DNA of 45,455 nt from Microbacterium sp. B19 (lineage in GTDB: Bacteria; Actinomycetota; Actinomycetes; Actinomycetales; Microbacteriaceae). Of the stretch, positions 5,025 to 42,020 are shown one piece after another (the stretch's first letter is position 1; each line of letters opens with the position of its first letter). The stretch lies in NCBI RefSeq assembly GCF_000333395.1, contig NZ_BADA01000441.1, positions 1 through 45,455 of the forward strand, written 5' to 3'. The notes beneath the pieces are model-generated. The model was not told the DNA's origin, ran no database searches, and was given only the letters and a program-made list of their open reading frames with translations. The translations under genes and the position numbers were made by a program.

Positions 5025-5080
5025 GGCCTCGGCCCGTGGTGGGTTGTGGCCGCGAGCCGGGTTGGGGCCGCCTCCCCCGC

Positions 5081-5145: not shown

Positions 5146-5234
5146 GGCGGATGTCGCGCGCGGCTCCGTGACCGCGGGCGATTTCACGCGCCTTTTACAC
5201 AGCCGAAACCAGGCGCGACCTCGGCGAGCGGATC

Positions 5235-5256
5235 GTTTCTGTCAAGCAACAGAAAC
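5235..5256. promoter_or_regulatory. Candidate TetR operator, copy 2
   Basis: Perfect palindrome GTTTCTGT-CAAGCA-ACAGAAAC, with 8-bp arms and a 6-bp centre, 31 nt upstream of the symporter start. Apart from one base it contains the same CTGTCAAGC(A/G)ACAGAAA string found on the minus strand at 4292-4308. Confidence 0.72.
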
Positions 5257-5287
5257 CCGAACCGCCCCTCATCGCCGGGAGCCCGCC

Positions 5288-27508: not shown

Positions 27509-28975
27509 TCACGCCTCCGGGATCGCGATGACGACGCTCTTGGTCTCGAGGAAGCCGCGCAGCCCTTCCTCGCCGAGGTCGCGGCCGAGCCCCGACTCCC
27601 CCGTACCGCCGAACGACAGCGCCGGGTCGAACAGGTTGTAGGTGTTGATCCACACCGTGCCGGCGTCCAGCGCGGCGGCCATGCGGTGCGCCCGGCCGAG
27701 GTCGCGGGTCCACACGCCCGCCGCGAGGCCGTACGCGGTGTCGTTGGCGATGCGGATGGCATCCGCCTCGTCCTCGAAGGGGATGATGCCGACGACGGGT
27801 CCGAAGATCTCCTCGCGGGCGATGCGCATGTCGTTGGTGACGCCGGCGAACAGGGTCGGCTCGACGTAGAAGCCCGGCTCGCGGACCCCGCCGCCGGCGA
27901 GGAGGGTCGCGCCCTCGTCGACACCGGCGCGGATGTAGCCGAGCACGCGCTCGCGCTGCTCCTCCGACACGAGCGGACCGACCGTGATGCCGCCGTCGAG
28001 GCCGTCGCCGACGGGGACGCGGCCCACGGCCGCCGTCATCCGCTCGGTCATCTCGGCGAGGATCGAGCGCTGCACGAGCAGGCGGCTGCCCGCGGTGCAC
28101 ATCTGCCCCGAGTGGCCGAACGACGCGCGCATCGCGGTGAGGACCGCGGCATCCAGGTCGGCGTCCTCGAAGACGATGTTCGGGCTCTTGCCGCCGAGCT
28201 CGAGCGTCACGCGCGTGAAGTCGTCGGCCGCGGCGTGCGCGACCAGGCGCCCCACCTCGGTCGACCCGGTGAAGGTGATCTTCGCGATGCCGGGGTGGGC
28301 GGTGAGCGCGGCGCCGACCGACCCGTCGCCCGTGAGGATGCTCACGGTGCCGGCGGGAACGCCCGCCTCCGCCAGGATGCCGCCGAGGCGGAGGAGCGTG
28401 AGCGGGGTGTCCTCCGCGGGCTTGGCGACCACGGGGCAGCCCGCGGCGAGCGCCGGGGCGAGCTTGAACGCGGCGGTCATGATCGGGAAGTTCCACGGCA
28501 GGATGATCGCCACCGGGCCCACCGGTTCCTGCACGGTGTAGACGTGGTGCCCGCCGCCGTCGACCGACACGACCGTGCCGCCCAGGCGCGACGGCGCCCC
28601 GGCGAAGTGCCGGAACGTGCGCGCCGCCATCGCGGTGTCGGCGCGGGAGCGCTCGATGGGCTTGCCGTTGTCGCGCGTCTCGAGCACCGCGAGCTCTTCG
28701 AGCCGCTCCTCGATGAGGTCGGCGACCCGGTTGAGGATCCGCGCGCGCTCGAGCGGCGCGAGCCCCCGCCAGCGGCGGTCGGCGTGCGTCGCGACGGCGA
28801 GCGCGACCGCGGCGTCGACGTCGGCGGCCGTGGCGTCGGCCACGGTCGTGAGCACTTCCCCGGTGGCGGGGTCGATCACCGGACGCGCGGGGCGCTCGCC
28901 GAGCGGCATCCACTCTCCGCCGAGGAGGAACGGTTCGTACTCCGGCAGCGCGGTGACGGTGGGGCGAAGGCTCAT
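27509..28975 (-). CDS. Aldehyde dehydrogenase family protein
   Basis: A 488-residue NAD(P)-dependent aldehyde dehydrogenase. The cofactor motif ILPWNFPIMTAAFKLAPALAAGCPVVAKPAE, the glycine-rich FTGSTEVG, the catalytic glutamate in VTLELGGKSPN and the catalytic cysteine in GHSGQMCTAGSR are all present, as is EEIFGPVV. It is of normal length. Being third after the Rieske oxygenase and next to the gamma-glutamylation ligase, it resembles the PuuA-PuuC pairing of gamma-glutamylated amine breakdown and may oxidise a gamma-glutamyl-aminoaldehyde or an aldehyde from the GMC enzyme or amine oxidases (inference). Confidence 0.92.
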   Translation of the reverse strand: MSLRPTVTALPEYEPFLLGGEWMPLGERPARPVIDPATGEVLTTVADATAADVDAAVALAVATHADRRWRGLAPLERARILNRVADLIEERLEELAVLETRDNGKPIERSRADTAMAARTFRHFAGAPSRLGGTVVSVDGGGHHVYTVQEPVGPVAIILPWNFPIMTAAFKLAPALAAGCPVVAKPAEDTPLTLLRLGGILAEAGVPAGTVSILTGDGSVGAALTAHPGIAKITFTGSTEVGRLVAHAAADDFTRVTLELGGKSPNIVFEDADLDAAVLTAMRASFGHSGQMCTAGSRLLVQRSILAEMTERMTAAVGRVPVGDGLDGGITVGPLVSEEQRERVLGYIRAGVDEGATLLAGGGVREPGFYVEPTLFAGVTNDMRIAREEIFGPVVGIIPFEDEADAIRIANDTAYGLAAGVWTRDLGRAHRMAAALDAGTVWINTYNLFDPALSFGGTGESGLGRDLGEEGLRGFLETKSVVIAIPEA

Positions 28976-28983
28976 GGGGGTCC

Positions 28984-30513
28984 TCAGAAGATCTCGAAGT
29001 ACTCGCGCTGCTCCCAGTCGGAGACGTGGCGAAGGTAGCGGGCGAACTCCGCCCTCTTGATGGTCGCGTACCAGTCGACGACGACGTCGCCGAGCGCGGC
29101 GCGGAACACCGCGTCGGCCTCGAACGCGTCGACGGCGGCGCCCAGCGAGGCCGGGAGCGACGGGGCGTCCGTGCGGTACGGGTCGGTTGTCGGCGCCGGC
29201 GGGATGAGACCCCGGTCGATGCCGTCGACGCCGCTGATCAGCTGCGACGCGATGTACAGGTACGGGTTGGCCGCGGGCTCGCCCGAACGGTTCTCCAGGC
29301 GCGTCGCGGGGTCGCCCACGCCGCCGACGGCGCGGACCATCGCGCCCTTGTTGTCGATGCCCCACGCGATGCGGTCGGGTGCGAGCGAGTTCGGCTGGTA
29401 GCGCTTGTAGCCGTTGACCGTCGGGGTCGTGAACGCCGCCGCGGCACCGGCGTGCGCGAGCAGACCGCCCAGGTAAGCCGAGCCGAGCAGCGACAGCGTC
29501 GTGCCGGGGGCGTCGGGGACGAACGCGCCGCGACCGGTCGCCCGATCGGTGAGCGACTGGTGCAGGTGCCACCCGGTGGACGCGCCCTCGGCGCCCTGCG
29601 GGCGGGACATGAACGTCGCGTGATACCCGAGGCCGGCGGCGATGCGCCGGACGGCGGTGCGGCACAGGACGATGGCATCCGCGATCTCGGCGGCCGAGCC
29701 GGCCTCCATCGTGATCTCGAACTGGCTGGGACCGAACTCCAGCTCGATCGAGCGCAGCGGCAGGTCGAGCAGCGTCAGCCCGCGGTACAGCGCGTCGACG
29801 AGCGGCTGCATGCGGTCGAGTCCCTCTTCGAGCAGCAGCTGCGATCCGCGCGTGGTCGGGGCCGCGAGCGAAGCGGCACCCGGGCGGCCCGGCGCACCGA
29901 CGTGCTCGGTGCCGAGGGCGGCGTCCTCGGCGCGGAAGACGTGGAACTCCAGCTCGGCGCCGACGGTCATGTCATAGCCCCGCGAGGCGAGGGTGGTCAG
30001 CTCGTTGCGGAGGATCGTGCGGGTGCAGAACGGCACGGGGCTGCCGTCGGGGAAGTGCAGGTCGCACAGGATCCACGCGGTCCCCGGCGCCCACGGCAGC
30101 ACGCGGAACGTCGTGGGGTCGGGCACCAGCACGATGTCGCCGGCGCCGCTGAACCCGCCGACCCCGACGCCCGTCTCGGCGCTGAACACCGAGAAGACGG
30201 ACTGCCCCGACGTGTCCTTCAGCAGCAGCGAACTCGGTGCCGTCACGCCCGAGCGGAGGGCGGCGGCGAGTCCGCCGCGCGCGATGGTCTTCCCGCGCAG
30301 GATGCCGTGCTGGTCGACGAACGAGAAGCGGACCATGTCGATGCCGAGCTCGTCCACGACGCGGCGCATCTGACCCGCGGCGGCGTACTTCGCCTCACTC
30401 CACAGCCCGTGCCGGTGGACGAAGCCCTCCCGGTCTGCCGCGAGCATCGGCCGCGCCGAGATGCCGCCGCCGCTCTCCGAGACGGGGCGCTCGTCGACGT
30501 TGCGCTCACGCAT
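28984..30513 (-). CDS. Glutamine-synthetase-like gamma-glutamylamide ligase
   Basis: A 509-residue protein of the glutamine synthetase superfamily. It has the N-terminal beta-grasp (DMVRFSFVDQHGILRGKTI), the metal-binding glutamates in GAELEFHVF and IELEFGPSQFEI, the ATP region TGWHLHQSLTD, and NRSGEPAANPYLYIASQL near residue 400. The DQHGxxRGK motif and lack of a separate adenylylation loop place it with ligases that attach glutamate to amines (PuuA, anilide ligases such as TdnQ/AtdA1), not with the housekeeping enzyme. The ATG at 30513 overlaps the Rieske gene by 8 bp. Direct neighbourhood to a Rieske oxygenase is the arrangement seen in aniline catabolism, where the gamma-glutamyl amide is the true oxygenase substrate. 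Confidence 0.85.
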   Translation of the reverse strand: MRERNVDERPVSESGGGISARPMLAADREGFVHRHGLWSEAKYAAAGQMRRVVDELGIDMVRFSFVDQHGILRGKTIARGGLAAALRSGVTAPSSLLLKDTSGQSVFSVFSAETGVGVGGFSGAGDIVLVPDPTTFRVLPWAPGTAWILCDLHFPDGSPVPFCTRTILRNELTTLASRGYDMTVGAELEFHVFRAEDAALGTEHVGAPGRPGAASLAAPTTRGSQLLLEEGLDRMQPLVDALYRGLTLLDLPLRSIELEFGPSQFEITMEAGSAAEIADAIVLCRTAVRRIAAGLGYHATFMSRPQGAEGASTGWHLHQSLTDRATGRGAFVPDAPGTTLSLLGSAYLGGLLAHAGAAAAFTTPTVNGYKRYQPNSLAPDRIAWGIDNKGAMVRAVGGVGDPATRLENRSGEPAANPYLYIASQLISGVDGIDRGLIPPAPTTDPYRTDAPSLPASLGAAVDAFEADAVFRAALGDVVVDWYATIKRAEFARYLRHVSDWEQREYFEIF

Positions 30514-31843
30514 CGACGGTCTCCTCGGCGGTCGCCTTCGGGGCGGCCCACGGCGAGGCGGAGCGGCGCTCCTGCTCGCGCTGGACCCAGCGCTCCTGCC
30601 ACGCGTCGTTGGCCGCGATCGTGTCCATCGCGAGCGGCCCGGTGAGCTTCGCGGCCTCCGCATCGCTCACGGGGTGCGAGGGCGTCTGCCCACCCGCGGC
30701 GAACGAATCGATCGCGCGGAGGAGCAGGCGGCGGTTGGCGGTGACGGCGCGGTCCGAGACGCCGAGGCGCTCGACCGTGCGGTCCTGGATCGGGCCCATG
30801 CTCTCGACGGCCCACTGGTCGTGGACGTTGATGTCCAGGCCCATGCCCGTGTACGTGAGGTCCTTCTGCTCCTGCGGGTCGAAACCCCAGTTGTTGTCGC
30901 GGTTGCGGATCGGCCGGTAGTCCGGCAGCGTCACGCCCTCGAGGCGCTGCTGCAGCAGGGTCTCCTTGTCGGTGACCTCGGCGAAGTCGTACCAGATCAT
31001 GTACCAGTAGTGATGCTCGTCGTCGATCGGCACGTGCCACTGCGTGAACACCTTGGTGTTACCGAACGGCACGACGAAGGCGTTCGGGAACATGAGGTTC
31101 GTCACGCGGACGTGTTTGATGTCGTCGGTGAGCTGCCGCAGCGCGAAGACGCGGAGGCCGTGCTCGGCGCTCTCGACCTCGATGTCGGGGCGGTAGCTCT
31201 CGCCCACGAGCATCGAGAGCTTCTTGCCGGTGCCCTCGACCTCCTCGGCGAACTGCTGCCCGTACATCTCGCGCGGGTCCTCCTGGATGAAGCGGTGCAG
31301 GAACGACACGTGGCTCGGGTCGATGCCGCCCTCGAGGCCCTGCAGCCAGTTGCAGTCCCACAGGCCCTTGAACGCGAAGGTGTACTCCTCGGGCGCGATG
31401 AAGCAGTCGTAGTCCGGGAACGGCGGCGGGTCGCCCGCACCCATGTAGGTGAAGATGATCCCGTTCTTCTCGACGCACGGGTAGTTGGCGATGCGGATCT
31501 TGCCGAGGAATTGGCTGTGCTCGGGCTCGGCCGGCTGCTCGACGCACTTGCCCTCTCCGTCATAGAGCCACCCGTGGTACAGGCACCGGATGCCATCCTC
31601 CTCGAGGCGGCCGTACGACAGGTCGACCCCGCGGTGGGCGCAGTAGCGGCTGATGAGGCCCCAGCCCTCGCGCTTCTTGAACAGCACGAGGTCCTCGCTC
31701 ATGATGCGGACGGCCTTCACCGGCCGCTCCCCCGGCATCTCGGACACGAGCGCGGCAGGCTGCCAGTACGAGCGCAGCAGGTTGCCGAGCGGAGTGCCGG
31801 GACCGGACCGGGTGATCTTCTCGTTGTCTTCCTGCTTCAGCAT
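30506..31843 (-). CDS. Rieske non-haem iron oxygenase (phthalate-dioxygenase/VanA type)
   Basis: A 445-residue single-component-type oxygenase. The [2Fe-2S] Rieske ligands are Cys68-x-His70 and Cys87-x2-His90. The catalytic part begins NWLQGLEGGIDPSHVSFLH, with bridging Asp175 and iron ligands His178 and His183, a wording typical of the phthalate 4,5-dioxygenase/LigX group that hydroxylates or demethylates aromatic acids and alkaloids. The C-terminus carries an Ala/Glu-rich tail. The dedicated reductase gene lies 54 bp upstream, and gene products downstream can process an amine or amide product. The ATG at 31843 is the first sensible start. Confidence 0.9.
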   Translation of the reverse strand: MLKQEDNEKITRSGPGTPLGNLLRSYWQPAALVSEMPGERPVKAVRIMSEDLVLFKKREGWGLISRYCAHRGVDLSYGRLEEDGIRCLYHGWLYDGEGKCVEQPAEPEHSQFLGKIRIANYPCVEKNGIIFTYMGAGDPPPFPDYDCFIAPEEYTFAFKGLWDCNWLQGLEGGIDPSHVSFLHRFIQEDPREMYGQQFAEEVEGTGKKLSMLVGESYRPDIEVESAEHGLRVFALRQLTDDIKHVRVTNLMFPNAFVVPFGNTKVFTQWHVPIDDEHHYWYMIWYDFAEVTDKETLLQQRLEGVTLPDYRPIRNRDNNWGFDPQEQKDLTYTGMGLDINVHDQWAVESMGPIQDRTVERLGVSDRAVTANRRLLLRAIDSFAAGGQTPSHPVSDAEAAKLTGPLAMDTIAANDAWQERWVQREQERRSASPWAAPKATAEETVDA

Positions 31844-31897
31844 CGCCGTCGCCTCTCGTGCTCTGTCGTGGTCGGTTTCGTGGGGGTTCCGGGCGGG

Positions 31898-32845
31898 TCA
31901 GGCCTGGAGGACGAGGACGGGGCACGCCGAACGCGAGACGCACACCATCATGCAGTCGTTGGCGGCCCGTTCCTGGGTCGTCAGGACGAAGTCGCGGTGC
32001 TCCACTTCGCCCTCGAGCACGCCCGTCTCGCAGCTGCCGCAGATGCCCTCCTCGCAGTCGGAGAGCACCTCGACTCCCGCCTCGCGCAGCACCTCGAGCA
32101 CGGTCTGCTCGGGTTCGACGGTCACCTCGACGCCCGTGAGCGCGAGGCGCACGGCGAACGGGCCGCCGGGTTCGTACTCGACGACGGGCGCGGTGAAGTA
32201 CTCCAGGTGCAGACGACCGGATGCCTCGGGCACGACGCGCGTGACCTCTTCGAGCATGCGCGCCGGGCCGCACGCGTAAACCGCGGCGTTCGGGTGGGCC
32301 GCGAGCTCGGCCTCGAGGTCGGCGCGGACGCCCTCGTCGCGGGCGACGACGTCGACCGCTCCCCCGGGGATCGTGGCGAGGACGTCGAGGAAGGCCATGC
32401 GGGTGCGGGAGGCGCCGAGGTACAGCACCCGCCACGGCACGCCCGCCGCGGCGGCGGCGCGCACCATGGGCAGAACCGGCGTGATGCCGATGCCGCCCGC
32501 GAGGAACAGGTACTCGCCGGCGGGGACGAGGCCGAAGTGGTTGCGGGGACCGCGGAGCGACACGACGTCGCCCGGGCGGAGGCGCTCGTGCACGGCTCGG
32601 GAACCGCCGCGGCTCTGCTCCTCGCGCAGGACGGCGATGCGATAGCGCGCCGAGCCGGGCTCGCCGCAGAGCGAGTACTGGCGGACCGGGGCCCCGGGGA
32701 GGGCGAGGTCGACGTGGGCGCCGGGCGTCCATTCGGGCAGCGGTCCGTCGACGCCCTCGAGTTCCACGGACATCACGTCGGCGGTCTCGAGGGTCAGGGA
32801 GCGTACGCGAGCGCGTAGCTCTCCGGCATCCTCTCGAGTCGTCAT
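31898..32845 (-). CDS. Rieske oxygenase reductase (VanB/phthalate dioxygenase reductase type)
   Basis: A 315-residue electron-transfer flavoprotein: flavin-binding domain with RQYSLCG (residues 55-61), NAD-binding domain starting LAGGIGITPVLPM (115-127) and YACGPARM, then a C-terminal plant-type [2Fe-2S] ferredoxin domain with Cys264, Cys269, Cys272 and Cys302. It passes electrons from NAD(P)H to the oxygenase encoded next to it. The first gene of the 12-gene operon. A TAGGAT -10 box sits 6 nt before the ATG on the minus strand, so the transcript is probably leaderless and directly overlapped by operator site f. Confidence 0.92.
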   Translation of the reverse strand: MTTREDAGELRARVRSLTLETADVMSVELEGVDGPLPEWTPGAHVDLALPGAPVRQYSLCGEPGSARYRIAVLREEQSRGGSRAVHERLRPGDVVSLRGPRNHFGLVPAGEYLFLAGGIGITPVLPMVRAAAAAGVPWRVLYLGASRTRMAFLDVLATIPGGAVDVVARDEGVRADLEAELAAHPNAAVYACGPARMLEEVTRVVPEASGRLHLEYFTAPVVEYEPGGPFAVRLALTGVEVTVEPEQTVLEVLREAGVEVLSDCEEGICGSCETGVLEGEVEHRDFVLTTQERAANDCMMVCVSRSACPVLVLQA

Positions 32846-32849
32846 GTTT

Positions 32850-32876
32850 GGATCCTAACAGATGCAGATTGGATCC
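32850..32876. promoter_or_regulatory. Paired GGATCC operator, site f (main catabolic operon)
   Basis: GGATCC at 32850-32855 and 32871-32876, 21 bp apart. On the minus strand the near copy is embedded in TTAGGATCCAAACATGAC (32841-32858), identical to 8593-8610 in front of the cupin gene. The GntR gene reads away from it on the plus strand, so site f may also serve autoregulation. Confidence 0.78.
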
Positions 32877-32987
32877 CGAATCATTGGTCTGGGAGCCAGT
32901 ACCGCGTGGATTGCGTGGCATCCGGCACCCGTTCTGCTAGGTTCGCACCTCGTGGGATCGCGACCACGATCGACCGAGAGGGGCACC

Positions 32988-33710
32988 ATGGCCGCACGGG
33001 GGGAAACCGAGATCACGGCGGCCGGGGGGCACGCGCTCGTCGACGAGATCGCCGCCAAGATCCGGGAACGCATCATGTCGGGCGACATCCCCATCGGCGC
33101 GCAGCTACGGCAAGCGGAGCTCGCCAACGACTTCGGCGTCAGCCGCACCCCGGTGCGCGAAGCGCTGCGCCAGCTGCAGACCGGCGGCCTCATCGAGGTG
33201 CTGCCCAACCGCGGTGCCGTCGTGCGCGTGCCGGCGCCGTGGGAGGTGCGCGAGGCCTACGAGGTGCGCGCCGAGCTCGAAGCCCTCGCGGCGGCCCGCG
33301 CCGTCGAGCGCATCTCGCGCAACGACGTGACGCGCCTCCGCGCGGCCAACCAGGACATGTACGACCGCTCCGTCGAGCGCGAGCGCGGTCAGAGCGACCC
33401 TGCCCTCGCGAGCCGCCGCGAGAACGACGTGTTCCACAACACGATCGCGCAGGTCTCCGCCAACGCCCGCCTCGCCCGCGCGATCGAGGAGATCAACGAG
33501 ACCTTCCCCCGCAACGTCTCGGCTCAGCTCCTCGTGGGCGACGACCGCCACCGCGAGGAGAACTTCCAGGAGCACGTCCGCATCATCGACGCGATCGAGC
33601 GCGGCGACGCCGAAGCCGCCCGCCGCGAGATGCGCGACCACGTCCTGAAGGCCGGCGAGCAGCTGGCGCGCTGGTACGAGCGGCGCTCCGCGACGGTGTT
33701 CACCGGCTGA
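32988..33710 (+). CDS. GntR-family regulator with FCD domain (VanR-like), probable master regulator
   Basis: A 240-residue regulator. An N-terminal winged helix (HALVDEIAAKIRERIMSGDIPIGAQLRQAELANDFGVSRTPVREALRQLQTGGLIEVLPNRGAVVRVP, about residues 15-78) is followed by an all-helical FCD ligand domain whose metal-binding histidines are seen in ENDVFHNTIAQ and the HVRIIDAIERGD stretch. The ATG at 32988 has a purine-rich ribosome site (GAGAGGGG) and a TAGGTT -10-like box 44 nt before it. Transcribed divergently from the catabolic operon across operator site f. VanR of Caulobacter, from the same GntR/FCD group, binds ATTGGATCCAAT, which fits the GGATCC pairs found at seven promoters here. Probably a repressor released by a pathway metabolite. 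Confidence 0.9.
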   Translation: MAARGETEITAAGGHALVDEIAAKIRERIMSGDIPIGAQLRQAELANDFGVSRTPVREALRQLQTGGLIEVLPNRGAVVRVPAPWEVREAYEVRAELEALAAARAVERISRNDVTRLRAANQDMYDRSVERERGQSDPALASRRENDVFHNTIAQVSANARLARAIEEINETFPRNVSAQLLVGDDRHREENFQEHVRIIDAIERGDAEAARREMRDHVLKAGEQLARWYERRSATVFTG

Positions 33711-33760
33711 CGCGGGGGGGGTCGGAGGACACCGTTCCATGTGTCCGCCGCGGAAAACAA

Positions 33761-33787
33761 GAATCCCCTCGCGAGGCGAGGGGATTC
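33761..33787. terminator. Hairpin terminator after the GntR gene
   Basis: GAATCCCCTCGC and its complement around a GAG loop, 50 nt past the GntR stop, with an AAAACAA run upstream. A stable 12-bp stem that should end transcription and marks the left border of the defence-like island. Confidence 0.82.
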
Positions 33788-33845
33788 CGGGATAGGCACG
33801 ACGGTCCAAGCCCGTCGCTCTGCACTCGACGGTACGTTCTAGGTC

Positions 33846-34568
33846 GTGTCGAGTCAACCTGATGTCCGGCGGCTCCTCCTGAGTGAGCCCCGATTGCGGC
33901 CCTATCTGAACGACGCCGGGCAGGATCTCGAGCGGGCATGGTCGACCTACCTGTGGGCGAACGAACTGTCCGGCTCGCTCCACGCCCAGATCTCCCTAGT
34001 CGAAGTAGCGATCCGCAATGCCCTGGATCGCGCGGTGTCCACGTGGAACGTCGCGAACGGCGGATCGGCGGAGTGGACTCTCCCGGGCAATGCCCAAGAG
34101 CCCCTCTACGCACTACTGAAGAACGATCTCAACAAGGCACGAAGGGCCGCTGCACGTGAGGCAGGGCTTCGCACGACGGGTCACCCTCGCCAGGGTGTGA
34201 CCGCTGGCCATGATGACATCGTGGCGCAGCTGATGTTCGGCACGTGGGTCAAGCTGCTCCGGCCGATGTCTAAGGTCGAGTCACCTCATCGCCAAGTGGC
34301 GTTGTGGTCAGCTGGCCTGAACGCTGCGTTCCCGGGGGCGGACCAGTCTGACGCGGGGAGGGCGAAGATCGGTGAGCAACTCGACAGCATTCGACGTCTG
34401 CGAAATCGCGTTGCACATCACGACAACCTCCTGGGCGTCAAGACGAGCAGCCGCCTCAACCAGATGCTCTCGCTCGTGCACAAAGCCAATGCGGCCTATC
34501 CCAGGCTCGTGATGGCGAACAGCAGTGTCCGGCGCATCGCCCGTGACGACCCACGACGGATCAAGTAG
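33846..34568 (+). CDS. Abi-like HEPN-domain protein (AbiD/AbiF type)
   Basis: A 240-residue protein resembling the Abi_2 family of phage abortive-infection factors. The N-terminal half has the family's helix with VEVAIRNALDR (residues 52-62), and the C-terminal half carries the HEPN ribonuclease motif R-x4-H, Arg186 to His191, in RRLRNRVAHHD. This supports an RNA-cleaving toxin-like activity triggered on infection. The GTG at 33846 is 7 nt after a TACGTT -10-like box. Codon and base composition is clearly less GC-rich than in the catabolic genes around it, indicating separate acquisition. Its 3' end faces an AbiEi-type antitoxin gene 35 bp away. Confidence 0.78.
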   Translation: MSSQPDVRRLLLSEPRLRPYLNDAGQDLERAWSTYLWANELSGSLHAQISLVEVAIRNALDRAVSTWNVANGGSAEWTLPGNAQEPLYALLKNDLNKARRAAAREAGLRTTGHPRQGVTAGHDDIVAQLMFGTWVKLLRPMSKVESPHRQVALWSAGLNAAFPGADQSDAGRAKIGEQLDSIRRLRNRVAHHDNLLGVKTSSRLNQMLSLVHKANAAYPRLVMANSSVRRIARDDPRRIK

Positions 34569-34603
34569 TTGAAGGCGTTGCGCGAGCCTCCCTCATTGCC
34601 GGA

Positions 34604-35275
34604 CTACTGCCCTCCGGCCCCTTCGCCGCGAGGAACTTCCCGCTCCAGGGCATCCAGTACCCCGCGCACGGCGGCGTTCGCGCGACCGAACGTGTCAATA
34701 ACACGCCGCAGATCCGCCGGCCGGACCTGCCCACGCAGGTGACGCGCCGCGGCCGCGGCCTCATCGGGCATGCCTCCCTGGCCCGGCTTCATCAGAAGGT
34801 CGTACAGCGTCTGCGCCGGCGTGGTCACCAGAGCACGTCCGAGCTCGTTCTGCTCGAGTACGGCGTCAAGACGATCGAGATCGCGCGGAACGAGGTGCAC
34901 GATGCCCCCGGTGTCCAGGGTCACGGGAGGTCGTCCCGCCTCCGGGATGGCAACGGTCGTCACGCCGATAGCGCGAGGAATCGCTGCCCAATGGCGCGCG
35001 GCGCCCAGCCCCATGAGGATGGCATTGCGGTTGCCGAAGCGGGCAGTGGCCACGGCCAGCCCTGCCGCTTCCAGGGTGGGGCGCCATTTTCGACCGTCGC
35101 GACCCTCCGGGGGTGCCGCGTAGACGCCCTTGGCGAGACGGACCAACGCCCCGCGGTCGGCGAGTCGAGCGATCGTGCGGCGTGCATGGGCGAGGTCCGC
35201 TTCCAGGTCCTGGGGCCGCACTGTCCGCAGCGGTGCGCGCTCGATTGCACGCAGCGCATCGACGTCGTTGACCAT
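34604..35275 (-). CDS. abiEi: AbiEi-type antitoxin / transcriptional regulator (orphan)
   Basis: A 223-residue protein of the AbiEi antitoxin family: an N-terminal winged helix (LRAIERAPLRTVRPQDLEADLAHARRTIARLADRGALVRLAKGVYAAPPEG) and a C-terminal domain with RNAILMGLGAARHWAAIPRAIGVTTVAIPEAG and ALVTTPAQTLYDLL. Such proteins repress their own promoter and neutralise the AbiEii nucleotidyltransferase toxin. No AbiEii gene follows; instead the Abi-like HEPN gene faces it. The ATG at 35275 has a strong GGAGGTGG ribosome site and lies just inside a large palindrome at 35290-35334. Confidence 0.82.
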   Translation of the reverse strand: MVNDVDALRAIERAPLRTVRPQDLEADLAHARRTIARLADRGALVRLAKGVYAAPPEGRDGRKWRPTLEAAGLAVATARFGNRNAILMGLGAARHWAAIPRAIGVTTVAIPEAGRPPVTLDTGGIVHLVPRDLDRLDAVLEQNELGRALVTTPAQTLYDLLMKPGQGGMPDEAAAAARHLRGQVRPADLRRVIDTFGRANAAVRGVLDALEREVPRGEGAGGQ

Positions 35276-35289
35276 CGAATCCACCTCCC

Positions 35290-35334
35290 TTACTGAGACT
35301 AGCGTGACACCTAGTGTCACGTCAGTCTCAGTAA
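35290..35334. promoter_or_regulatory. Nested palindrome, candidate AbiEi operator
   Basis: Outer arms TTACTGAGACT (35290-35300) and AGTCTCAGTAA (35324-35334) are perfect complements. Inside them GTGACAC and GTGTCAC (35304-35320) form a second palindrome around CTA. It covers the -10/-35 region expected for abiEi, starting 15 bp upstream of its ATG. Fits autorepression by the winged-helix domain. The region from 35335 to 35394 holds nothing further that I can identify. Confidence 0.8.
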
Positions 35335-35394
35335 GTTTGTTCTGCAGCCGGAAGAGCGTGCCTCCGCCCGCGGCCGACCCTCGTGGGCCGCGCC

Positions 35395-35904
35395 TCAGCC
35401 GACCACCAGCGGCGCCGCCATCAGCACCGCCGACGCGCCCATCGCGAGCGGCGGGAGCCGCGTGACGAGCGGCCGGTCGCGGTGCGCCGTGACGAACAGC
35501 ACCACACCGCCGACGGCGTACGCGGCCACCCCGACGAGCGTGAGCACCACGAGCGGCATCGCCCCCGCCCCGTGATGCGACGAGCCGGGGGATGCCGGGA
35601 CGTGCGCGGCCAGCAGCAGGGATGCCATGAGCACGGCGCCGAGCGCGTCGAACGCCCGCATCCGCCGGTCGTCCCCGCGCCGCGCGCGCCCCGGAGCAAC
35701 CGCGACGAGCGCGGCGAACAGCAGCGCCGCCGCCCAGAACACCGGCGGCACGCGCGCGCCGCCGAGCACCATGTCGCCCATCGCGAGGAGCATGAGCGCC
35801 GCGATGAGCAGTTCACGCACGCGCGCGGCGGGGCGGTCGGCGGCGACGCAGCACGCGCCGGCCGCCGTCGCCACCAGCGCGCCGACATGCAGGACCTCCC
35901 CCAT
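35395..35904 (-). CDS. Small integral membrane protein (DUF5134-like), possible copper partner
   Basis: A 169-residue protein with about five hydrophobic helices (LLIAALMLLAMGDMVLGG, VFWAAALLFAALVAVA, ALGAVLMASLLLAAHV, MPLVVLTLVGVAAYAVGGVVLFV and a last one at the C-terminus). A His-His-Gly-Ala-Gly-Ala-Met stretch sits in a loop near residue 115 and Met residues line helix 2, features of small actinobacterial membrane proteins that often accompany copper proteins. The ATG overlaps the stop of the amine oxidase gene (TGATG), so it is translated with the copper enzyme. A role in copper delivery is inference only; the family name is tentative. Confidence 0.68.
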   Translation of the reverse strand: MGEVLHVGALVATAAGACCVAADRPAARVRELLIAALMLLAMGDMVLGGARVPPVFWAAALLFAALVAVAPGRARRGDDRRMRAFDALGAVLMASLLLAAHVPASPGSSHHGAGAMPLVVLTLVGVAAYAVGGVVLFVTAHRDRPLVTRLPPLAMGASAVLMAAPLVVG

Positions 35905-37985
35905 CAGTGCCCGTGGTGCTCGTGCCCGTGGTGCCCGTGCGCGGAGTGGTCGTGGTGCTCGTGCCCGTGGTGCTCGTGCCCGTGGTGCCCGTGCGCGGAG
36001 TGGTCGTGGTGCTCGTGCCCGCCGGCGTCGTGCCCGTGGAACGCGTGGCCCTCGGCCACGGCACCGCCCGACCCCGCGACCGGCGCGTGGCAGTGGTCGC
36101 CGCCCGAGGACGGGGGCAGGTCGAGCGACGGGTTCCGCGTGAAGAAGCCGTCCGGCTCGAACCGCAGGCCGATGCGGTGCACCGGCATGATCGGCCATTC
36201 CTCGGGCTTCGGGTAGTGGTGCACGCCGACGATCGGCCACAGCACGAGCTCGGCGCCGTCGAGCGGACGATCCGCCTGCTGCCAGGCCGTGATGCCCTCG
36301 GCCTCGAGCGGCGCCTGGTTGGGGTAGTCGCCCGTGATGAAGCGCTCGTTCGGGTCGTACGCGGTGGCCCACAGGTGCTTCGAGACGAACGGCGCCTTGC
36401 GCGCGACGATGCTGCCGGGCTTGGCGAACAGCCGCGTCGTGTGCATCGCGGACAGACGGTAGGCGGTGCTCTCGCCGAAACGGTTGGTGCGCTCGGTGTT
36501 CTCCACCCGCCAGTGCACCGCGCGGGACGCGTCGGCCATCCGACCGGCATCCTTCTCGGACGCGATGACCTCGGAGACCATCTTGACGGCGTTGCCCCAG
36601 GGGTTGAGCTCTTCGTCCTCCTCGACCTCGGCGTGCACCTCGACCAGGCGGTTCTTCGGCCCGTCGACCGCGGTGTCCATGCGCACGGCGAAGTAGTGCT
36701 GGTGCGTGGGGGCCTGGACGTTGGGACTGACCATGCGACCGTAGGCGGGCATCTTGCCGTCGTCGATGCCGGACACCGACAGGATGCCGGTGAGCTTGAT
36801 CTCCAGCTCGATCGAGCCGTCCTGGTACAGCGACCAGTAGAAGCCGTAGTCGTAGTTCGCGACGGTCGCGAAGAACGAGATCACCAGGCGCCGCGAGCGG
36901 CGGACGTCGGCCTCGCCCGTGCGGGTGTTGACGTGCTTCCAGAGGATGGACGAGTCCTCCTCGTGCAGGCACACGCCGTTCGTGATGGTCTGAGCCTCGC
37001 CGACGCCGTCGAGCACGTGGGCGTCGAAGTAGTGGATCTCGCCGAGGCAGTCGCATCCGAGTTCGAGGGATGCCGTGAGGGGGCCGGCCCCGTACTCGCC
37101 CCAGTCGAAGAAGTTCTTGCGGTACGCCGTCGGGTCGGAGTCGAGATACGGCACGTACATCTCGTTCACCGCGGCGCGGCGGAGGACGGGACGCTCGACG
37201 TCGCCGTCGCGGTACGCGATGTCGTGCAGCACGAGCCCCTCGCGGTGCGTGAAGCCGATGCGGAACGACCAGTTCTGCCACGTGACTCGGTGGCCCTCGA
37301 CGGTGAAGCCGGGGCCCTCGGGCTGCGTGATCTCCAGCGGCGCGACGTGGCGGTCGGGACCCCAGGTGCCCGAGCGGTAGTTGCCGCCCTCGCTCGCCAT
37401 CGGGAGGACGCCGTGGTCCTCGAGCCGGATGATGTCGAGGGTCTCGAGGTCGAGGATCGGCACGAGACCCGCGACCGGACGCGCGTAGCCGTTGTCGTCG
37501 GCGCTCTCGCGGTACCAGACGGTCCCCCACGACAGACGGCGGTCGGCGAGGTCCTCGGGTTCGAAGCCCGTGATCGACTCGGGGTCGACCCACACGTGCG
37601 TGGTGTCGGTGATGCCGCGCTTGGCGAGGGCCTCCTTGAGGAGCGGGTGCTCGCGCGCGGCGCGGGCGATCGCGCGCGCCTCGTCGCTCGAGACGCCGGG
37701 GCGCTTGGCATCCACCGGGCTCCAGGATGCCAGCGAGGCCTCGGCGCGGTCGGTGCCCGAGGTCCAGCCGGTGACCTCCCACGCCGCGTGCGCCGCGGGG
37801 TTCATCACGATGAGGCGCACCGGGCGCCCCTGGCCGGGGGCGAGGCTGCGGGCCAGACCCTCCTCGACGGCGATGCCCCAGAAGCGCGGTTCGGCGCCGA
37901 TGCGGTCGTCCGCGCGCACCAGCGCGGTGATCTCGACGATCTCGCTCGGGGTGAGGGGGTCGCTCCAGTGCCGGTCGGCGGTCAT
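35904..37985 (-). CDS. Copper/topaquinone amine oxidase with His-rich C-terminal tail
   Basis: A 693-residue primary-amine oxidase. The topaquinone precursor is Tyr378 in VANYDYGF; the catalytic base is Asp294 in FFDWGEYG; copper ligands are the two histidines of PTHQHYF and a later one in MPVHRIGL. No signal peptide is visible, as in cytosolic actinobacterial enzymes (about 640 residues). The extra C-terminus is a tail in which about half of the last 45 residues are His, built from two copies of GHEHHDHSAHGHHGHEHH. It oxidises primary amines to aldehydes with release of ammonia and H2O2. Start: ATG at 37985, 41 bp after the ggt gene; downstream is the small membrane protein. Confidence 0.93.
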   Translation of the reverse strand: MTADRHWSDPLTPSEIVEITALVRADDRIGAEPRFWGIAVEEGLARSLAPGQGRPVRLIVMNPAAHAAWEVTGWTSGTDRAEASLASWSPVDAKRPGVSSDEARAIARAAREHPLLKEALAKRGITDTTHVWVDPESITGFEPEDLADRRLSWGTVWYRESADDNGYARPVAGLVPILDLETLDIIRLEDHGVLPMASEGGNYRSGTWGPDRHVAPLEITQPEGPGFTVEGHRVTWQNWSFRIGFTHREGLVLHDIAYRDGDVERPVLRRAAVNEMYVPYLDSDPTAYRKNFFDWGEYGAGPLTASLELGCDCLGEIHYFDAHVLDGVGEAQTITNGVCLHEEDSSILWKHVNTRTGEADVRRSRRLVISFFATVANYDYGFYWSLYQDGSIELEIKLTGILSVSGIDDGKMPAYGRMVSPNVQAPTHQHYFAVRMDTAVDGPKNRLVEVHAEVEEDEELNPWGNAVKMVSEVIASEKDAGRMADASRAVHWRVENTERTNRFGESTAYRLSAMHTTRLFAKPGSIVARKAPFVSKHLWATAYDPNERFITGDYPNQAPLEAEGITAWQQADRPLDGAELVLWPIVGVHHYPKPEEWPIMPVHRIGLRFEPDGFFTRNPSLDLPPSSGGDHCHAPVAGSGGAVAEGHAFHGHDAGGHEHHDHSAHGHHGHEHHGHEHHDHSAHGHHGHEHHGH
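35913..36020. repeat. Two 54-nt tandem repeats coding the His-rich tail
   Basis: Units at 35913-35966 and 35967-36020 encode the same 18 residues (GHEHHDHSAHGHHGHEHH) and are nearly identical in DNA. Copy number of such a repeat can change by slippage. Confidence 0.85.
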
Positions 37986-38026
37986 CGGGTCTCCTTGCTG
38001 CGGTGGTGCGGGCGATGCGGGTGGGT

Positions 38027-39526
38027 TCAGGATGCCGGGACGAGGGCGGCGACCCCGTCGGCGCGGGGGTCGCTCGCGGCATCGCGCACCCCGGCGGTGC
38101 GCGATCGGCGGACGAGCTGGACGTGGCCGGCCTCGTCGGCGGGCCCGGGGAAGGACGCGATCCCGAGACCGAGGAACTCGGCGCGCTCCACGACCTCCGA
38201 CACGACACCGGGTTCGGTGACGAGCGTGAGGCGGTCGTGGCCGAGGTCGCGGTCGCCGATCACCCAGCGCGGACGGCCGAGCAGTTCGTCGAGGTCGACG
38301 GCGGGGTCGGTCGCATCCGGCAGGAGCTGGGCGAGGATCCACGGCTGAGCGCGTCCGCCCTGGCATCCGGCGACCACGGTCAGGTCTCCGCGGTCCACGA
38401 TCGCGGGAGCGAGCGTGTGCGGCGGGCGGGCGCCGGGCCGGATCGCCGCGGGCGAGGCGGGGTCGATCGAGAACGCGCCGCCGCGGTTGTGCAGCAGGAT
38501 GCCGGTCGCGGGGTCGAGGAGTCCGGAACCGAAGGTCTGGTACACGCTCTGCACGATCGTGACGGCGAATCCGTCGTCGTCGATCGCGACCACCGCGGCG
38601 GTGTCGCCCTGCGGCCGGGGCTCGAGCGGGCCACGGAAGGGACGGGCGTCGAGCGCGAGCATCGCCTCGACGTCGACGGGACCCGCGGCGGGGTCGCCGA
38701 GGTGCGCGCCGCGGGCCTGGACACCGAGGACGCTGGCCTCGAGAAGCTCCGCCGCGCCGGGCTCGCGCTCGCCGGCCGCGGCGACGCCCATGAGGATCGC
38801 CCCCACGGACGGCGGCGGCGCGACGCTGTACCGGGCGTCGCCGATCTCGCGGGTCAGCGCCTCGGTGACCTCGGCGCGGTAACCCGCGAAGTCGTCGACG
38901 GTGTGCGTGCCGCCGTCCGCGCGCAGCGTCTCCACCAGAGACCGCGCGATGTCGCCCGCGTAGAAATCGTGGGGGTCGGTCGCCATCCGACGCAGCGACC
39001 GGGCGAGCGCGGGCTGAACGAGCGCGTCGCCCTCGACCAGGAGCGCGCCGTCGCGCGTGAAGACGTCCCGGAGCCCCGGGTCGGCGAAGATCGCGTCGGC
39101 GCGCGACACCAGCGCGCGGTCAAGGCCCGCGCTGACCGTCGTGCCCTCCTCCGCCGCCGCGGCGGCGTCCTCGAGCGCGCGCGCGAGCGGCAGGACGGCG
39201 CCGAGTCCGGCGATCGCCTGCCATCCGGCGAACATCCCGGGGACCGTGACCGACCCGGCCCCGGCGCGCGGGACCTCGGTCCAGGCCGCGGCGACGTCGG
39301 CGATCGCGGCGGGCGCTGTGCCGGCCGCGACCACGGCGACCGTGGAGCCGTCGGGGCGACGGACGAGGGCGATGAGGTCACCGCCGACGGCGCACTGGTG
39401 GGGGTACACCACGGTGAGCATCGCGGCCGCGGCGAGCGCCGCATCGAGCGCGTTGCCGCCCGCAGCGATCGCGGAGCGTCCCGCCTCGACGGCGGCGTGG
39501 TGCGGAGCGGCGAGCGCGATGGTCAT
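38027..39526 (-). CDS. ggt: Gamma-glutamyltransferase / gamma-glutamyl hydrolase, cytosolic form
   Basis: A 499-residue Ntn-hydrolase of the gamma-glutamyltransferase family. The proenzyme would cleave itself before Thr309 in PQGDTAAVVAIDDDG, giving the large and small subunits. The N-terminal half shows the family's AGRSAIAAGGNALDAALAAAAML and GSVTVPGMFAGW. There is no signal peptide, so unlike most homologues it should act in the cytoplasm. In a regulon that also encodes a gamma-glutamyl-amine ligase it is a candidate for removing the glutamyl group after oxidation (inference). The ATG at 39526 overlaps the stop of a remnant ORF; a damaged copy of its 5' end lies directly upstream. Confidence 0.9.
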   Translation of the reverse strand: MTIALAAPHHAAVEAGRSAIAAGGNALDAALAAAAMLTVVYPHQCAVGGDLIALVRRPDGSTVAVVAAGTAPAAIADVAAAWTEVPRAGAGSVTVPGMFAGWQAIAGLGAVLPLARALEDAAAAAEEGTTVSAGLDRALVSRADAIFADPGLRDVFTRDGALLVEGDALVQPALARSLRRMATDPHDFYAGDIARSLVETLRADGGTHTVDDFAGYRAEVTEALTREIGDARYSVAPPPSVGAILMGVAAAGEREPGAAELLEASVLGVQARGAHLGDPAAGPVDVEAMLALDARPFRGPLEPRPQGDTAAVVAIDDDGFAVTIVQSVYQTFGSGLLDPATGILLHNRGGAFSIDPASPAAIRPGARPPHTLAPAIVDRGDLTVVAGCQGGRAQPWILAQLLPDATDPAVDLDELLGRPRWVIGDRDLGHDRLTLVTEPGVVSEVVERAEFLGLGIASFPGPADEAGHVQLVRRSRTAGVRDAASDPRADGVAALVPAS

Positions 39527-39695
39527 GTCAGATCCCCGGGCGGGCCGTCGAGATGAACGGTGAGCATCGCGCCGCGGGGAGCGCCCATTGAGCGCGTGCC
39601 GCCGCCAGCGATCCGGAGCGTCCGCCTCGACGCGGGCTGGTACGGAGCGGCGAGCCCAATGATCATGTCAGATCACCCGCGGGGCCGTCGAGATG
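39465..39695. repeat. Degenerate tandem duplication across the flavoprotein/ggt junction
   Basis: About 90 bp around the ggt start (39465-39555) reappears at 39606-39695 with several substitutions and small indels, 140 bp apart. Both copies contain the end of the upstream flavoprotein (HLDGP-x-GDLT, stop) and the ATG of ggt (39526 and 39666). Confidence 0.8.
39523..39666 (-). pseudogene. Remnant ORF from duplicated ggt start fused to flavoprotein tail
   Basis: A 47-codon ORF starting MIIGLAAPY, a decayed copy of the ggt start MTIALAAPH, then shifted in frame and finishing LTVHLDGPPGDLT like the flavoprotein's C-terminus. The stop overlaps the true ggt ATG, so translation coupling is preserved. 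Not considered a functional gene. Confidence 0.7.
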
Positions 39696-40767
39696 AAGTC
39701 GAGATCGGGCCCGTCGATCCCCGGTGGCGAGATCCGCGACCGCGTCGCCGATCGCGGGACCGAACCTGAAAGCCGTGCCCCGAACACGCCGAGACGGCGA
39801 TGACCTCGGGGGCGTCGGCCAGGGCCCCGATGACGAAGCGTTTGTCCTCGGTCATCGTGTACAGGCACGCGGCGAGTTCGACGGGTGCGGTGTCGAGCGC
39901 GGGGACGTACGCGTGCAGCAGATCGCGCAGCGCGTCGGCTTCGGCGGGCGTCGGGGGCGCGACGGGGGTCTCGGGGTCCCAGACCTCTCCGGCATCCACT
40001 CCGAGCTTGACGCCGTTGCCGTCGGCATCCGGGATGCCGAAGACGAGCCCGTCGGCGCGATCGACCGAGAACGCTCCGAGCGCCGACGGGATCCCCGCGG
40101 GCTGGCCGGCACGGACCGTGACGGTGAGGATGCGCCACACCTCGAGGAGGTCGGACAGCTGCGGCAGCAGGGTGCCGGCCCACGAGCCGCCCGCGACGAC
40201 GAGACGGTTCGCGCGGACGATCCCGCGGTCGGTACGGACCTCGACGCCGTCGGCGACCGTGTCCCAGCCGAGCACCCGCTCGCCGTCGCGCAGGTCGGCG
40301 CCCGCGGCCTCGGCGAGCCGACGGAGGGCGATGAGCGACCGCTCGGCCTCGAGCACCCCGGCGGACGGGTCGTGGACGGCGCGGTAGCCCTCGGGCACCG
40401 CGAACGACGGCATGAGGGCGGCCATCTCGGCGCGGTCCTCGACCAGGACGCAGTCGGGGCCCTGCAGCTGTGACGCCCCCTCGTGCGCGTACAGTCCGCC
40501 GGTGCGGTGCAGCAGCTTCTCGCCCGAGGCGCGCTCGAGCGCCTCCCACGCGTCGAAGGCCTTCTCCACCAGCGGGTTCCACACCGGGTTCGGGTACGCG
40601 CGGCGGATCATGCGCGTGCGTCCGTGCGAGGACCCGCGGCCGTGCCCCGGCACGAAGCGGTCGATCCCGATCACGCGGACGCCGCGGGCCGCGAGCGCGG
40701 CGACGGTGGACATGCCGTGGATGCCGAGCCCGAGTACGACGACGTCAGCCGACACGACCCCGCTCAC
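39663..40767 (-). pseudogene. FAD-dependent amine oxidoreductase (sarcosine-oxidase/MTOX-like), frameshifted near its end
   Basis: The gene codes for a flavoprotein of the monomeric sarcosine oxidase group. FAD motif GLGIHG is at residues 13-18, followed by DRFVPGHGRGSSHGRTRMIRRAY, GGLYAHEG, VVAGGSWAGTLLP and CLYTMTEDKRFVIG. The final motif breaks after SACSGHGFQ: one extra base (the G pair at 39765-39766) shifts the frame to an unrelated end, stopping at 39673. Removing it restores FGPAIGDAVADLATG and a stop at 39663-39665 overlapping the next ATG, for 367 residues. The covalent-flavin cysteine region is not certain. GTG at 40767 overlaps the aminotransferase stop. The shifted protein lacks only the last helix and flavin contact. 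Confidence 0.8.
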
Positions 40768-42020
40768 CGGAGGATTCCCGTCGCGATCGCGGCCACCCCG
40801 TCGACGAGGGCGGCGATGTCGGAGTCGTCGTTGTAGACGTGGGCGGACGCGCGGACGACGCTGGGCACCCCGCGGTCGCCGAGATCCCACTGGCCGTGGG
40901 TCGCGGGAACCGAGACGACCCGGACTCCGCGCCGCGCGAGCTGGACGACGGCGTCGGCCGCGGCCACACCGTCGATCACGAACGTCACGAGGGCGGAATG
41001 GCTCCCCGCCGGGTCGGCGACGGTGACGCCGTCGATCTCGGCGAGCGCCGTCCGGAGGCGCGCACCGGTCTCGACGAGCCACTCTTCCGTTTCGGGGATG
41101 CCCCGCGCGGCGGCCTCCTCCAGGGCGACGCCGAGTCCGAGGCGCGCCGCGAGCGGGCCCTCCCACGTCTCGTAGCGCCGCGCCGAGGGGACGAGCTCCC
41201 AGTCCGCGCTCGAGGTCCAGTGCGCACCGCGCACGTCGGGGGCGATGGGGAGCAGACGCTCGAGCAGCGTGTCGCGGACGTAGGCGAAGCCGGTGCCGCG
41301 CGGGGCCCGGAGGAACTTGCGGCCCGTCGTGACCAAGACGTCGCACCCGATCTCGCGGACGTCGACCGCCAAGTGGCCGACCGACTGCGTGGCATCCAGG
41401 ATGTACGTGCCTCCGTAGCGCTGCACGACCTCCCCGATCTGGGCGGCCGGTTCGACGAGACCGGACGAGGTGGGCACGTGGGCGACCGTCACGATCGACG
41501 GTACCCCGTCGGACAGCAGGGCTTCGAGCGCGGGGACGTCGACCCGACGGTGCGCGTCGTACGGCGCGATGACGAGGTCGATGCCGCGTTCGCGCGCGAG
41601 GCTCATGAGGTGGAGCGCGTGGCTGACGTAGGTGCTGCTGGACGCGATGATGCGCTGTCCCGCGGCCGGCCGCAGCGCGTCGAGGAGGATGCGGAGGCCC
41701 GTCGAGGCGCTGTCGAAGAGGGCGATCTCGGGGGTGTCCGCGCCCACGAGCTGGGCGGCCGAGGCGTACACCGCGTCGAGGTCGGCGCGGCGTTCCGCGG
41801 CTGCCTCGTACCCGCCCTTCTGCTCCTCGAGCCGCAGGTGGTCCACCACCGCGGCCACGACGGCGTGCGTCGGCAGGGCCGCGCCGGCGGCGTTGAAGTG
41901 GCTGGTGAGGGTCGAGCCGGCGGTGCGCGCGCGCTCCGCACCGACGTCGATCGCGGATCCGCCCACGAAGGGCGCGGATGCCGAGGCCGTCGCGGCGTCT
42001 GCGGTGGGGGGCGGGTTCAT
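40764..42020 (-). CDS. Class V aminotransferase / PLP-dependent lyase (cysteine-desulfurase-like fold)
   Basis: A 418-residue PLP enzyme of aminotransferase class V. The Schiff-base lysine is Lys235 (TTGRKFLRAPRGTGF), the aspartate that contacts the pyridine nitrogen is Asp209 in LDATQSVGHLAVD, and phosphate-binding SASTG is near residue 105. This sequence type includes isopenicillin-N epimerase-like and ergothioneine-biosynthesis-like lyases and not only desulfurases; no catalytic cysteine loop is evident. First gene of a minus-strand unit with the flavoprotein, ggt, amine oxidase and membrane protein genes, starting from operator site g. Probably cleaves or transaminates an amino-acid-like part of the substrate. 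Confidence 0.86.
   Translation of the reverse strand: MNPPPTADAATASASAPFVGGSAIDVGAERARTAGSTLTSHFNAAGAALPTHAVVAAVVDHLRLEEQKGGYEAAAERRADLDAVYASAAQLVGADTPEIALFDSASTGLRILLDALRPAAGQRIIASSSTYVSHALHLMSLARERGIDLVIAPYDAHRRVDVPALEALLSDGVPSIVTVAHVPTSSGLVEPAAQIGEVVQRYGGTYILDATQSVGHLAVDVREIGCDVLVTTGRKFLRAPRGTGFAYVRDTLLERLLPIAPDVRGAHWTSSADWELVPSARRYETWEGPLAARLGLGVALEEAAARGIPETEEWLVETGARLRTALAEIDGVTVADPAGSHSALVTFVIDGVAAADAVVQLARRGVRVVSVPATHGQWDLGDRGVPSVVRASAHVYNDDSDIAALVDGVAAIATGILR

Follow-up and report, generated by a model that had tools for sequence, protein, structure and literature searches.

A cysteine/histidine tail and a neighbouring membrane protein gene as candidate copper-supply parts of AGAO-like amine oxidases

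How does a copper enzyme that apparently functions in the cytosol obtain its metal there, where copper is kept scarce? This question is raised by a stretch of 45,455 nucleotides (nt) from Microbacterium sp. B19 (contig NZ_BADA01000441.1; the whole stretch is here called the window). In it, the gene for a copper/topaquinone amine oxidase runs on past the conserved enzyme domain into a histidine-rich tail and abuts a gene for a small membrane protein. Judging from the genomes compared here, a metal-ligand tail of Cys and His is present almost without exception in oxidases of this subfamily that lack export signals, and the membrane protein gene is, by co-occurrence and position, a real partner of the oxidase. 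Topaquinone oxidases derive the cofactor from a tyrosine of the enzyme itself, using copper and oxygen (PMC9491219), and a review describes bacterial cytosolic cuproenzymes as almost absent (PMC7558416).

The oxidase and its C-terminal tail

The window oxidase is, by domain score and active-site segments, an AGAO-like copper amine oxidase. AGAO, the phenylethylamine oxidase of Arthrobacter globiformis, belongs to the same subfamily and aligns with residues 13-634 of the window protein. PF01179 was matched at 484.8 bits (cut-off 27; E value, 2.6e-145) together with the N3 domain, and NF008559 (PRK11504.1) at 734.7 bits (cut-off 651), in searches whose residue numbering includes two extra residues at the start. 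The segments NYDYGFYW, HQH, and HHYPKPEEWPIMP align with AGAO (PDB 1av4/1rjo). We take NYDYGFYW to be the segment of the topaquinone tyrosine, and HQH and the later His segment to hold the copper-ligand histidines. Homology begins four residues after the start MTADR, and a simple hydropathy test found no hydrophobic N-terminus, which places the protein among the enzymes free of an export signal. The enzyme appears to work in the cytosol.

The oxidase family models end at residue ~623-632, and the open frame runs on to residue 693. The resulting tail, PSSGGDHCHAPVAGSGGAVAEGHAFHGHDAGG(HEHHDHSAHGHHGHEHHG)x2H, contains 26 His and 1 Cys among its 69 residues, a ligand-rich terminal stretch past the folded domain, as in tails of the metallochaperone type. 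The first-pass annotation had pointed to two 18-residue His-rich repeats, encoded by tandem 54-nt units past the domain end. These repeats are real (Table 1), but they form merely the end portion of a longer tail that starts with an HCH-bearing stretch. Tandem Repeats Finder gave the array a score of 236, and only two arrays among the window's 65 rows scored higher.

We compared the tail with those of close relatives (labels such as L005 and G039 are our own handles). The number of residues past position 640 is 53 in the window oxidase, 35 in L005 (99% identical), 22 in L033 (98%), and 32 in L034 (96%); the last three tails stay in frame and contain His. Since the 54-nt repeat is not kept even in the 99% identical L005, we read the duplication as a recent elaboration and not as a core feature of a tail that seems conserved in composition and free in sequence. 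The reading frame of the tail can be taken as real, because homologues 72-99% identical to the window oxidase retain a His and/or Cys tail, the length of which varies.

Table 1. Positions in the window of the oxidase gene, the parts of its tail, and the membrane protein gene
Feature	Position	Strand	Remarks
AGAO-like copper/topaquinone amine oxidase gene	35904..37985	minus	693 residues; starts MTADRHWSDPLTP; signal peptide not apparent
C-terminal Cys/His tail beyond enzyme domain	35907..36113	minus	residues 625-693; altered forms in homologues
HCH motif of tail	36087..36095	minus	residues 631-633; common to AGAO (..GSHCHG) and many relatives
54-nt unit, upstream copy	35961..36014	minus	18 residues; array goes on imperfectly to 36039
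54-nt unit, downstream copy	35907..35960	minus	18 residues; identical to upstream copy at 54/54 positions
Membrane protein gene	35395..35904	minus	169 residues; six predicted transmembrane helices; ATG (35904) shares one base with oxidase TGA (35906-35904)

Distribution of the tail among relatives

A survey of 296 genomes of the class revealed 108 amine oxidase places, 107 of which were read (the fragment G247:C12 was not fetched). They were sorted into 77 AGAO-like enzymes whose C-terminus is intact, 29 secreted-type enzymes, and 1 with its C-terminus cut (L002, dropped); the AGAO-like class was assigned by profile score and, for the fragment L003, by identity. Expected counts were obtained from random windows of equal length in the core of the same proteins. 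Beyond the end of the conserved domain, Cys occurred at least once in all 77 AGAO-like enzymes (10.7 expected), and a close Cys/His pair motif was present in 74 (4.6 expected). In the C-termini of the secreted type, Cys was found in 5 of 29 (10.5 expected) and the pair motif in 1 of 29 (0.5 expected). An export-type N-terminus, with a start followed by a hydrophobic stretch, was seen in 0 of 73 testable AGAO-like enzymes (L125, L132, L163, and L003 were left out) compared with 24 of 29 of the secreted type; throughout, export was assigned by simple hydropathy and reading rather than by a signal-peptide program. AGAO-like enzymes that lack an export signal occur commonly in this class.

Within the genus Microbacterium, Cys was present in 91/91 AGAO-like C-termini. 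This set consists of 93 C-termini minus two of the secreted type (L025 and L030), and one of its members, L295, is cut by a contig end; it differs from the 95 AGAO-like loci of the genus in that cut C-termini are missing and L127 was taken from the class survey. The tails were of two kinds, neither with a fixed sequence: Cys-rich (e.g., GCCGGGAACTCGH) and His-rich (e.g., HDHGSQDHGAHGHHH). On one genus tree, from which L025, L030, and L295 were excluded, the two kinds interchange, with at least 10 changes of His-richness.

These counts bear on one alternative, that the tail is a neutral low-complexity extension, in which GC-rich repeats coding for His, Gly, and Asp grow and shrink by slippage without any function. 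The variation in length among enzymes 96-99% identical and the absence of the two perfect 54-nt units from the 99% identical homologue are what slippage would produce, and neutrality of the extra 18-residue unit itself is plausible. For the tail as a whole we regard this explanation as quite improbable: composition is kept though the sequence is free, with Cys in 77/77 tails against about 11 expected and no enrichment in the secreted type, and Cys-type and His-type tails replace one another on a single tree.

Similar tails were found at greater distance. One genome per species was scanned, and the best 80 of at least 588 relatives (among 594 stretches), spanning Proteobacteria, Bacilli, and Planctomycetes among others, were examined. 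Cys or at least two His were present in the tail of 74 of the 79 intact homologues of this best-80 set, in several phyla (L105, at a contig end, was dropped). The first-pass annotation had called the tail unusual for this family and had proposed a comparison of tail presence and repeat number among homologues. Such a tail is instead found in all of the class-survey AGAO-like enzymes and in nearly all intact homologues, AGAO included; what is not conserved, even at 99% identity, is the number of 54-nt repeats. A tail special to the window oxidase is ruled out by its occurrence throughout the homologue sets.

The enzymes without a tail, five of them in the best-80 set (L072, L076, L063, L084, and L087), were examined for export signals. 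Two tail-less planctomycete oxidases, L072 and L076, bear signal sequences at the N-terminus, and no other convincing one was seen in the best 80; a third export flag, in L073, sits far upstream of the likely start. Tail-less L063 has no C-terminal motif; its start, MSACHTS, carries Cys and His instead, and so does the start of L099, MSCCHTT. In L084, from a Bacillales metagenome-assembled genome (MAG), a single open frame (2445-5375, plus strand) encodes a GcvT-type (aminomethyltransferase) protein followed by the oxidase, which has no Cys/His tail.

We also searched 369 genomes of the class of Methylophaga, in which 9 had any amine oxidase match and seven matches exceeded 350 bits. Two of the seven carry a Cys tail, L091 (..SGSSCCSE) and L320 (..SARCCGE; its first 16 model positions are unmatched), and no export signal was seen in either. 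L321, L323, and L324 lack a Cys/His tail, and a signal sequence or lipobox is present in each; L321 is AGAO-like by score and has a lipobox. L322 has no tail and an ambiguous N-terminus. The seventh match, L319, is tail-less too, although it looks non-exported. Export signals were thus found in three tail-less AGAO-like enzymes (L072, L076, and L321). The rule suggested by these sequences, that cytosolic oxidases of the AGAO-like subfamily carry a Cys/His tail and exported ones do not, fits most cases.

The membrane protein gene as a partner of the oxidase

The overlap between the oxidase gene and a gene for a small membrane protein, described in the first-pass annotation, was borne out once its extent was corrected to 1 nt, and the motif HHGAGAM is indeed present in a loop of the 169-residue protein. 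Using a membrane protein profile that had been built from genes found behind oxidases, we detected the membrane gene in 46 of 149 Microbacterium genomes, 44 of which also have an AGAO-like oxidase. The oxidase itself is present in 67 of the 149 (Fisher p 2.6e-18 for the association, uncorrected for descent). Among 52 copies of the membrane gene, in a count that leaves out the second pieces of split genes in G009 and G010, 32 begin 95-219 nt after the end of the oxidase domain on the same strand. Another 14 share contig and strand with an oxidase at a distance of up to ~18 kb, 13 of them downstream (nine at ~8 kb) and 1 upstream. Two of the ~8-kb cases, L275 and L287, have the oxidase first and the membrane gene last in one same-strand run of genes. 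In 30 adjacent pairs of the genus, the spacing from the oxidase stop to the membrane profile match is -1 to +13 nt.

The search was extended to 297 genomes of the order. It returned 20 rows corresponding to 18 membrane genes (L335/L344 and L336/L345 were merged), 12 of which directly follow an amine oxidase gene, with 1 more in divergent orientation next to one. Four of the 18 had served to build the profile; for the 14 outside the profile-building set, 9 are directly downstream of an oxidase and 1 is divergently beside it. Eight of these nine downstream genes score just 35-63 bits. Because the profile scores are so low, gene position serves as a fair blind test here, with the caveat that one genus supplies six of the nine and that several matches cover only part of the profile.

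Some loci were irregular. In the assembly of L333, the oxidase frame continues across the membrane gene behind it with no stop in between, and a frameshift or assembly error is likely. The membrane gene of L005 (3528-4033), which stands beside the 99% identical oxidase, is frameshifted, possibly by a sequencing error. L291 and L293, in two genomes of the genus, have a membrane gene without an adjacent oxidase, beside a glycoside-hydrolase-65-like gene (name read from the sequence).

Conservation in the membrane protein family centres on potential metal ligands. The residues H6, C18, C19, M38, M42, D44, M93, M100, H110, H111, M155, and M162 of the window protein are conserved. In an alignment of 33 sequences below 70% identity, the columns conserved at 80% or more are L5, H6, A9, M38, A41, M42, D44, W57, R75, H85, G89, M93, A94, L96, M100, H110, H111, R149, M155, and M162; 10 of these 20 are His or Met (p 1.5e-5 against composition in a test of Cys, His, and Met). 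C18 and C19 are retained in about three quarters of the sequences. M38 and M42, present in 94% and 96% of 47 sequences, both fall within predicted helix 2. An AlphaFold model displayed six helices with a predicted local distance difference test (pLDDT) score of 88.7. The mean number of Lys plus Arg residues in loops 1-2, 2-3, 3-4, 4-5, and 5-6 of the family is 3.3, 0.3, 4.5, 0.02, and 2.0, respectively. Because these residues concentrate in loops 1-2, 3-4, and 5-6, the positive-inside rule predicts that the His-rich loop 4-5 is outside, and Cys18-19 would then lie towards the inner end of helix 1.

We considered the family DUF5134 (PF17197) for this protein, and membership was rejected: the window protein scores 22.5 bits against a gathering threshold of 29, a weak similarity only. 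Matches to DUF5134 at an E value of 0.1 or less occur in 12 of 47 relatives (best, 1.4e-5), and a literature search on DUF5134 found no paper. Foldseek, run with the window's membrane protein and the partner of the AGAO group described below, gave no match at an E value of 0.001 or less. The VIA-align rows for the window protein are generic helical bundles, and no solved fold stands out.

In other lineages, unrelated proteins occupy the same place. Behind the oxidase of the AGAO group, the taxonomic family of genome G039, stands a protein with four predicted helices. G039 presumably belongs to the Micrococcaceae, as its oxidase ends ..ANSSQSGSHCHG, nearly as AGAO does. An AGAO-like oxidase is present in 46 of 47 genomes with this partner and in 63 of 120 genomes overall, and 38 of 47 partner copies are directly downstream of the oxidase, counting matches down to 20 bits. 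The partner is invariant only at H22, C46, C49, M72, and H76 in 20 sequences (the alignment was made from 20 loci, with L308 and L314 out because no start was found, L300 the same as L013, and L085 and L179 added). In Bacilli (L065, L075, and L083), a third, Met-rich protein follows the oxidase; C57, M60, and M64 are invariant in these three sequences, which have a motif SS.MGAMMG and a His-rich end. Profile comparison revealed no relation between the window's membrane family and either the AGAO-group or the Bacilli partner. Finally, a membrane protein of 244-266 residues is encoded after the oxidase in two Methylophaga, in Thalassolituus, and in a further Pseudomonadota MAG (L091, L107, L099, and L097). 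The one tested among the four, that of L091 (Methylophaga), is a Caa3_CtaG protein (PF09678, 39.7 bits against 27.7). By coordinate comparison, the sole PF09678 match in the genomes of L091 and L099 sits at the gene behind the oxidase. A pairing of CtaG with the oxidase throughout that class was rejected, since the 369 Methylophaga-class genomes contain 9 with an oxidase match, 37 with CtaG, and one adjacent pair.

The neighbourhood of the gene suggests another role for the membrane protein, namely, that of an amine permease, sensor, or anchor for amine catabolism that has nothing to do with metal. The gene lies in an amine-catabolic cluster, and the ~8-kb run from oxidase to membrane gene in L275 and L287 includes transporter-like genes (names read from sequence). 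We consider this role doubtful: in the membrane protein, conserved positions are concentrated among Met, His, and Cys; in the unrelated AGAO-group partner, the sole invariant columns are H, C, C, M, and H; and a Methylophaga has a Caa3_CtaG protein in the same place.

Proposed copper supply, gene surroundings, and known systems

Copper acquisition is the best reading of the tail, because the tail, placed past the folded domain, is rich in ligands and is coupled to a membrane gene whose product conserves His, Met, and Cys. We propose that tail and co-translated membrane protein form a copper-supply module serving a cuproenzyme that matures in the cytosol, a proposal that we judge to be evenly poised. 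It is grounded in the composition of the tail, its confinement, within the sets compared, to enzymes that are not exported, the gene coupling, the ligand conservation, and the predicted topology. According to this model, the membrane protein would take up copper from outside through its His-rich outer loop and outer Met residues, and the copper would move along a Met path to the Cys pair on the cytosolic side. The flexible tail of the oxidase would capture the incoming copper and lift its local concentration at the maturing enzyme, and the captured copper would load the active site, leading to self-catalysed topaquinone formation. The close spacing of the genes would put both products together. 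We infer that copper is the metal, that it moves inward, and that it is handed over to the active site. It is also conceivable that dedicated copper-supply modules evolved repeatedly, combining an on-board Cys/His tail with lineage-specific, unrelated membrane importers for one enzyme; we rate this generalization somewhat below an even chance.

The same ligands could serve protection, with tail and membrane protein buffering or exporting copper or another metal without feeding the active site. His-rich and Cys-rich tails are equally suited to metal storage, the metal could be other than copper, and among the copper membrane proteins of Bacillus subtilis, YcnJ is reported to be an importer and CtaM is suspected of exporting the metal (PMC13344008). 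Such a protective function seems unlikely to us, as the tail sits on the enzyme itself and is absent from exported AGAO-like enzymes, and the arrangement of outer His and Met with inner Cys would fit an inward hand-over.

Several observations weigh against the copper-supply module or limit its reach. For six of the 52 membrane gene copies, no oxidase lies nearby on the same strand of the same contig, although one may have been split off by assembly, and G354 and G438 have the membrane gene without an AGAO-like oxidase. No membrane gene was detected directly behind 66 of 78 class-survey oxidases, and thus the membrane partner is not obligatory. L005 keeps an intact tail while its partner gene is frameshifted. 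L087, L319, and L084 look non-exported yet have no Cys/His tail, and for L087 and L319 this absence is without explanation. Within the genus, His-rich tails (at least 8 His) occur in 24 of 30 oxidases with an adjacent membrane gene compared with 12 of 60 without one (Fisher 5e-8). We rejected this correlation as evidence, as the partner changes between present and absent only twice on the genus tree; Cys-type tails in six further relatives that have a piece of the partner (L334-L339) also speak against it. Moreover, there are deposits of AGAO that comprise 620-628 residues without the full C-terminus (either the construct or the modelled part), and HarA is reported to make topaquinone in Escherichia coli with copper in the medium (PMC6345859). 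Because HarA matures in a copper-supplied host and short AGAO deposits exist, tail and partner would at most be needed under limited copper, and it is likely that neither is needed when copper is plentiful.

The oxidase lies among likely amine-catabolic genes (window positions 27509-42020). These encode an aldehyde dehydrogenase, a glutamine-synthetase-like ligase, a Rieske oxygenase and its reductase, a GntR regulator, a gamma-glutamyltransferase-like protein, a flavin adenine dinucleotide (FAD) oxidoreductase, and a class V aminotransferase. In several other actinobacterial loci, e.g., L039, L049, and L058, a Rieske-like protein resembling this one stands behind the related oxidase (read from the sequences). 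Just beyond the membrane protein gene are an Abi_2-like gene (33846-34568, plus strand) and an AbiEi-antitoxin-like gene (34604-35320, minus strand). The window contains other repeats: an imperfect 140-nt tandem duplication at 39411-39697 (87% matches; score, 439), which spans the start of the gamma-glutamyltransferase-like gene and a stretch upstream of it, and two 131-nt tandem copies at 9114-9379 (86% matches; score, 395).

The literature consulted consisted of titles and abstract openings and covered few subscription journals. Within it, we found nothing on a His-rich tail, copper chaperone, copper uptake, or partner gene for these oxidases, no published role for the AGAO tail, and no treatment of how AGAO-like enzymes acquire copper in the cytosol. 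If the wider proposal of repeatedly evolved supply modules is true, it would describe a copper-delivery route to a cytosolic bacterial cuproenzyme that is new to this literature, and the route would extend to the AGAO group, whose namesake is the textbook model of topaquinone formation. The tail and partner genes are concrete, deletable candidates in an enzyme group used for studies of self-catalysed topaquinone formation.

Metal-binding tails and copper importers are each of a known kind; it is the general on-enzyme tail with lineage-specific membrane partners that we did not find described in the sources at hand. Within the subfamily, the AGAO C-terminus ..GSHCHG matches ..GGDHCHA of the window oxidase, with a tail of about a dozen residues in AGAO compared with 69 in the window. 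The Caa3_CtaG protein behind the L091 oxidase belongs to a copper-assembly family, but to a different one from the window's membrane protein. CTR copper importers have an MxxxM motif in a transmembrane helix of a three-helix subunit. The window's membrane protein resembles them in the MxxxM formed by M38 and M42 in predicted helix 2 and differs in having six predicted helices and no Pfam sequence match. A parallel to the tail is found in the nickel accessory proteins UreE, HypB, and SlyD, which have flexible His-rich tails of variable length thought to store or deliver nickel. In those systems the tail is located on a separate accessory protein, whereas in the window it is carried by the metal-using enzyme itself.

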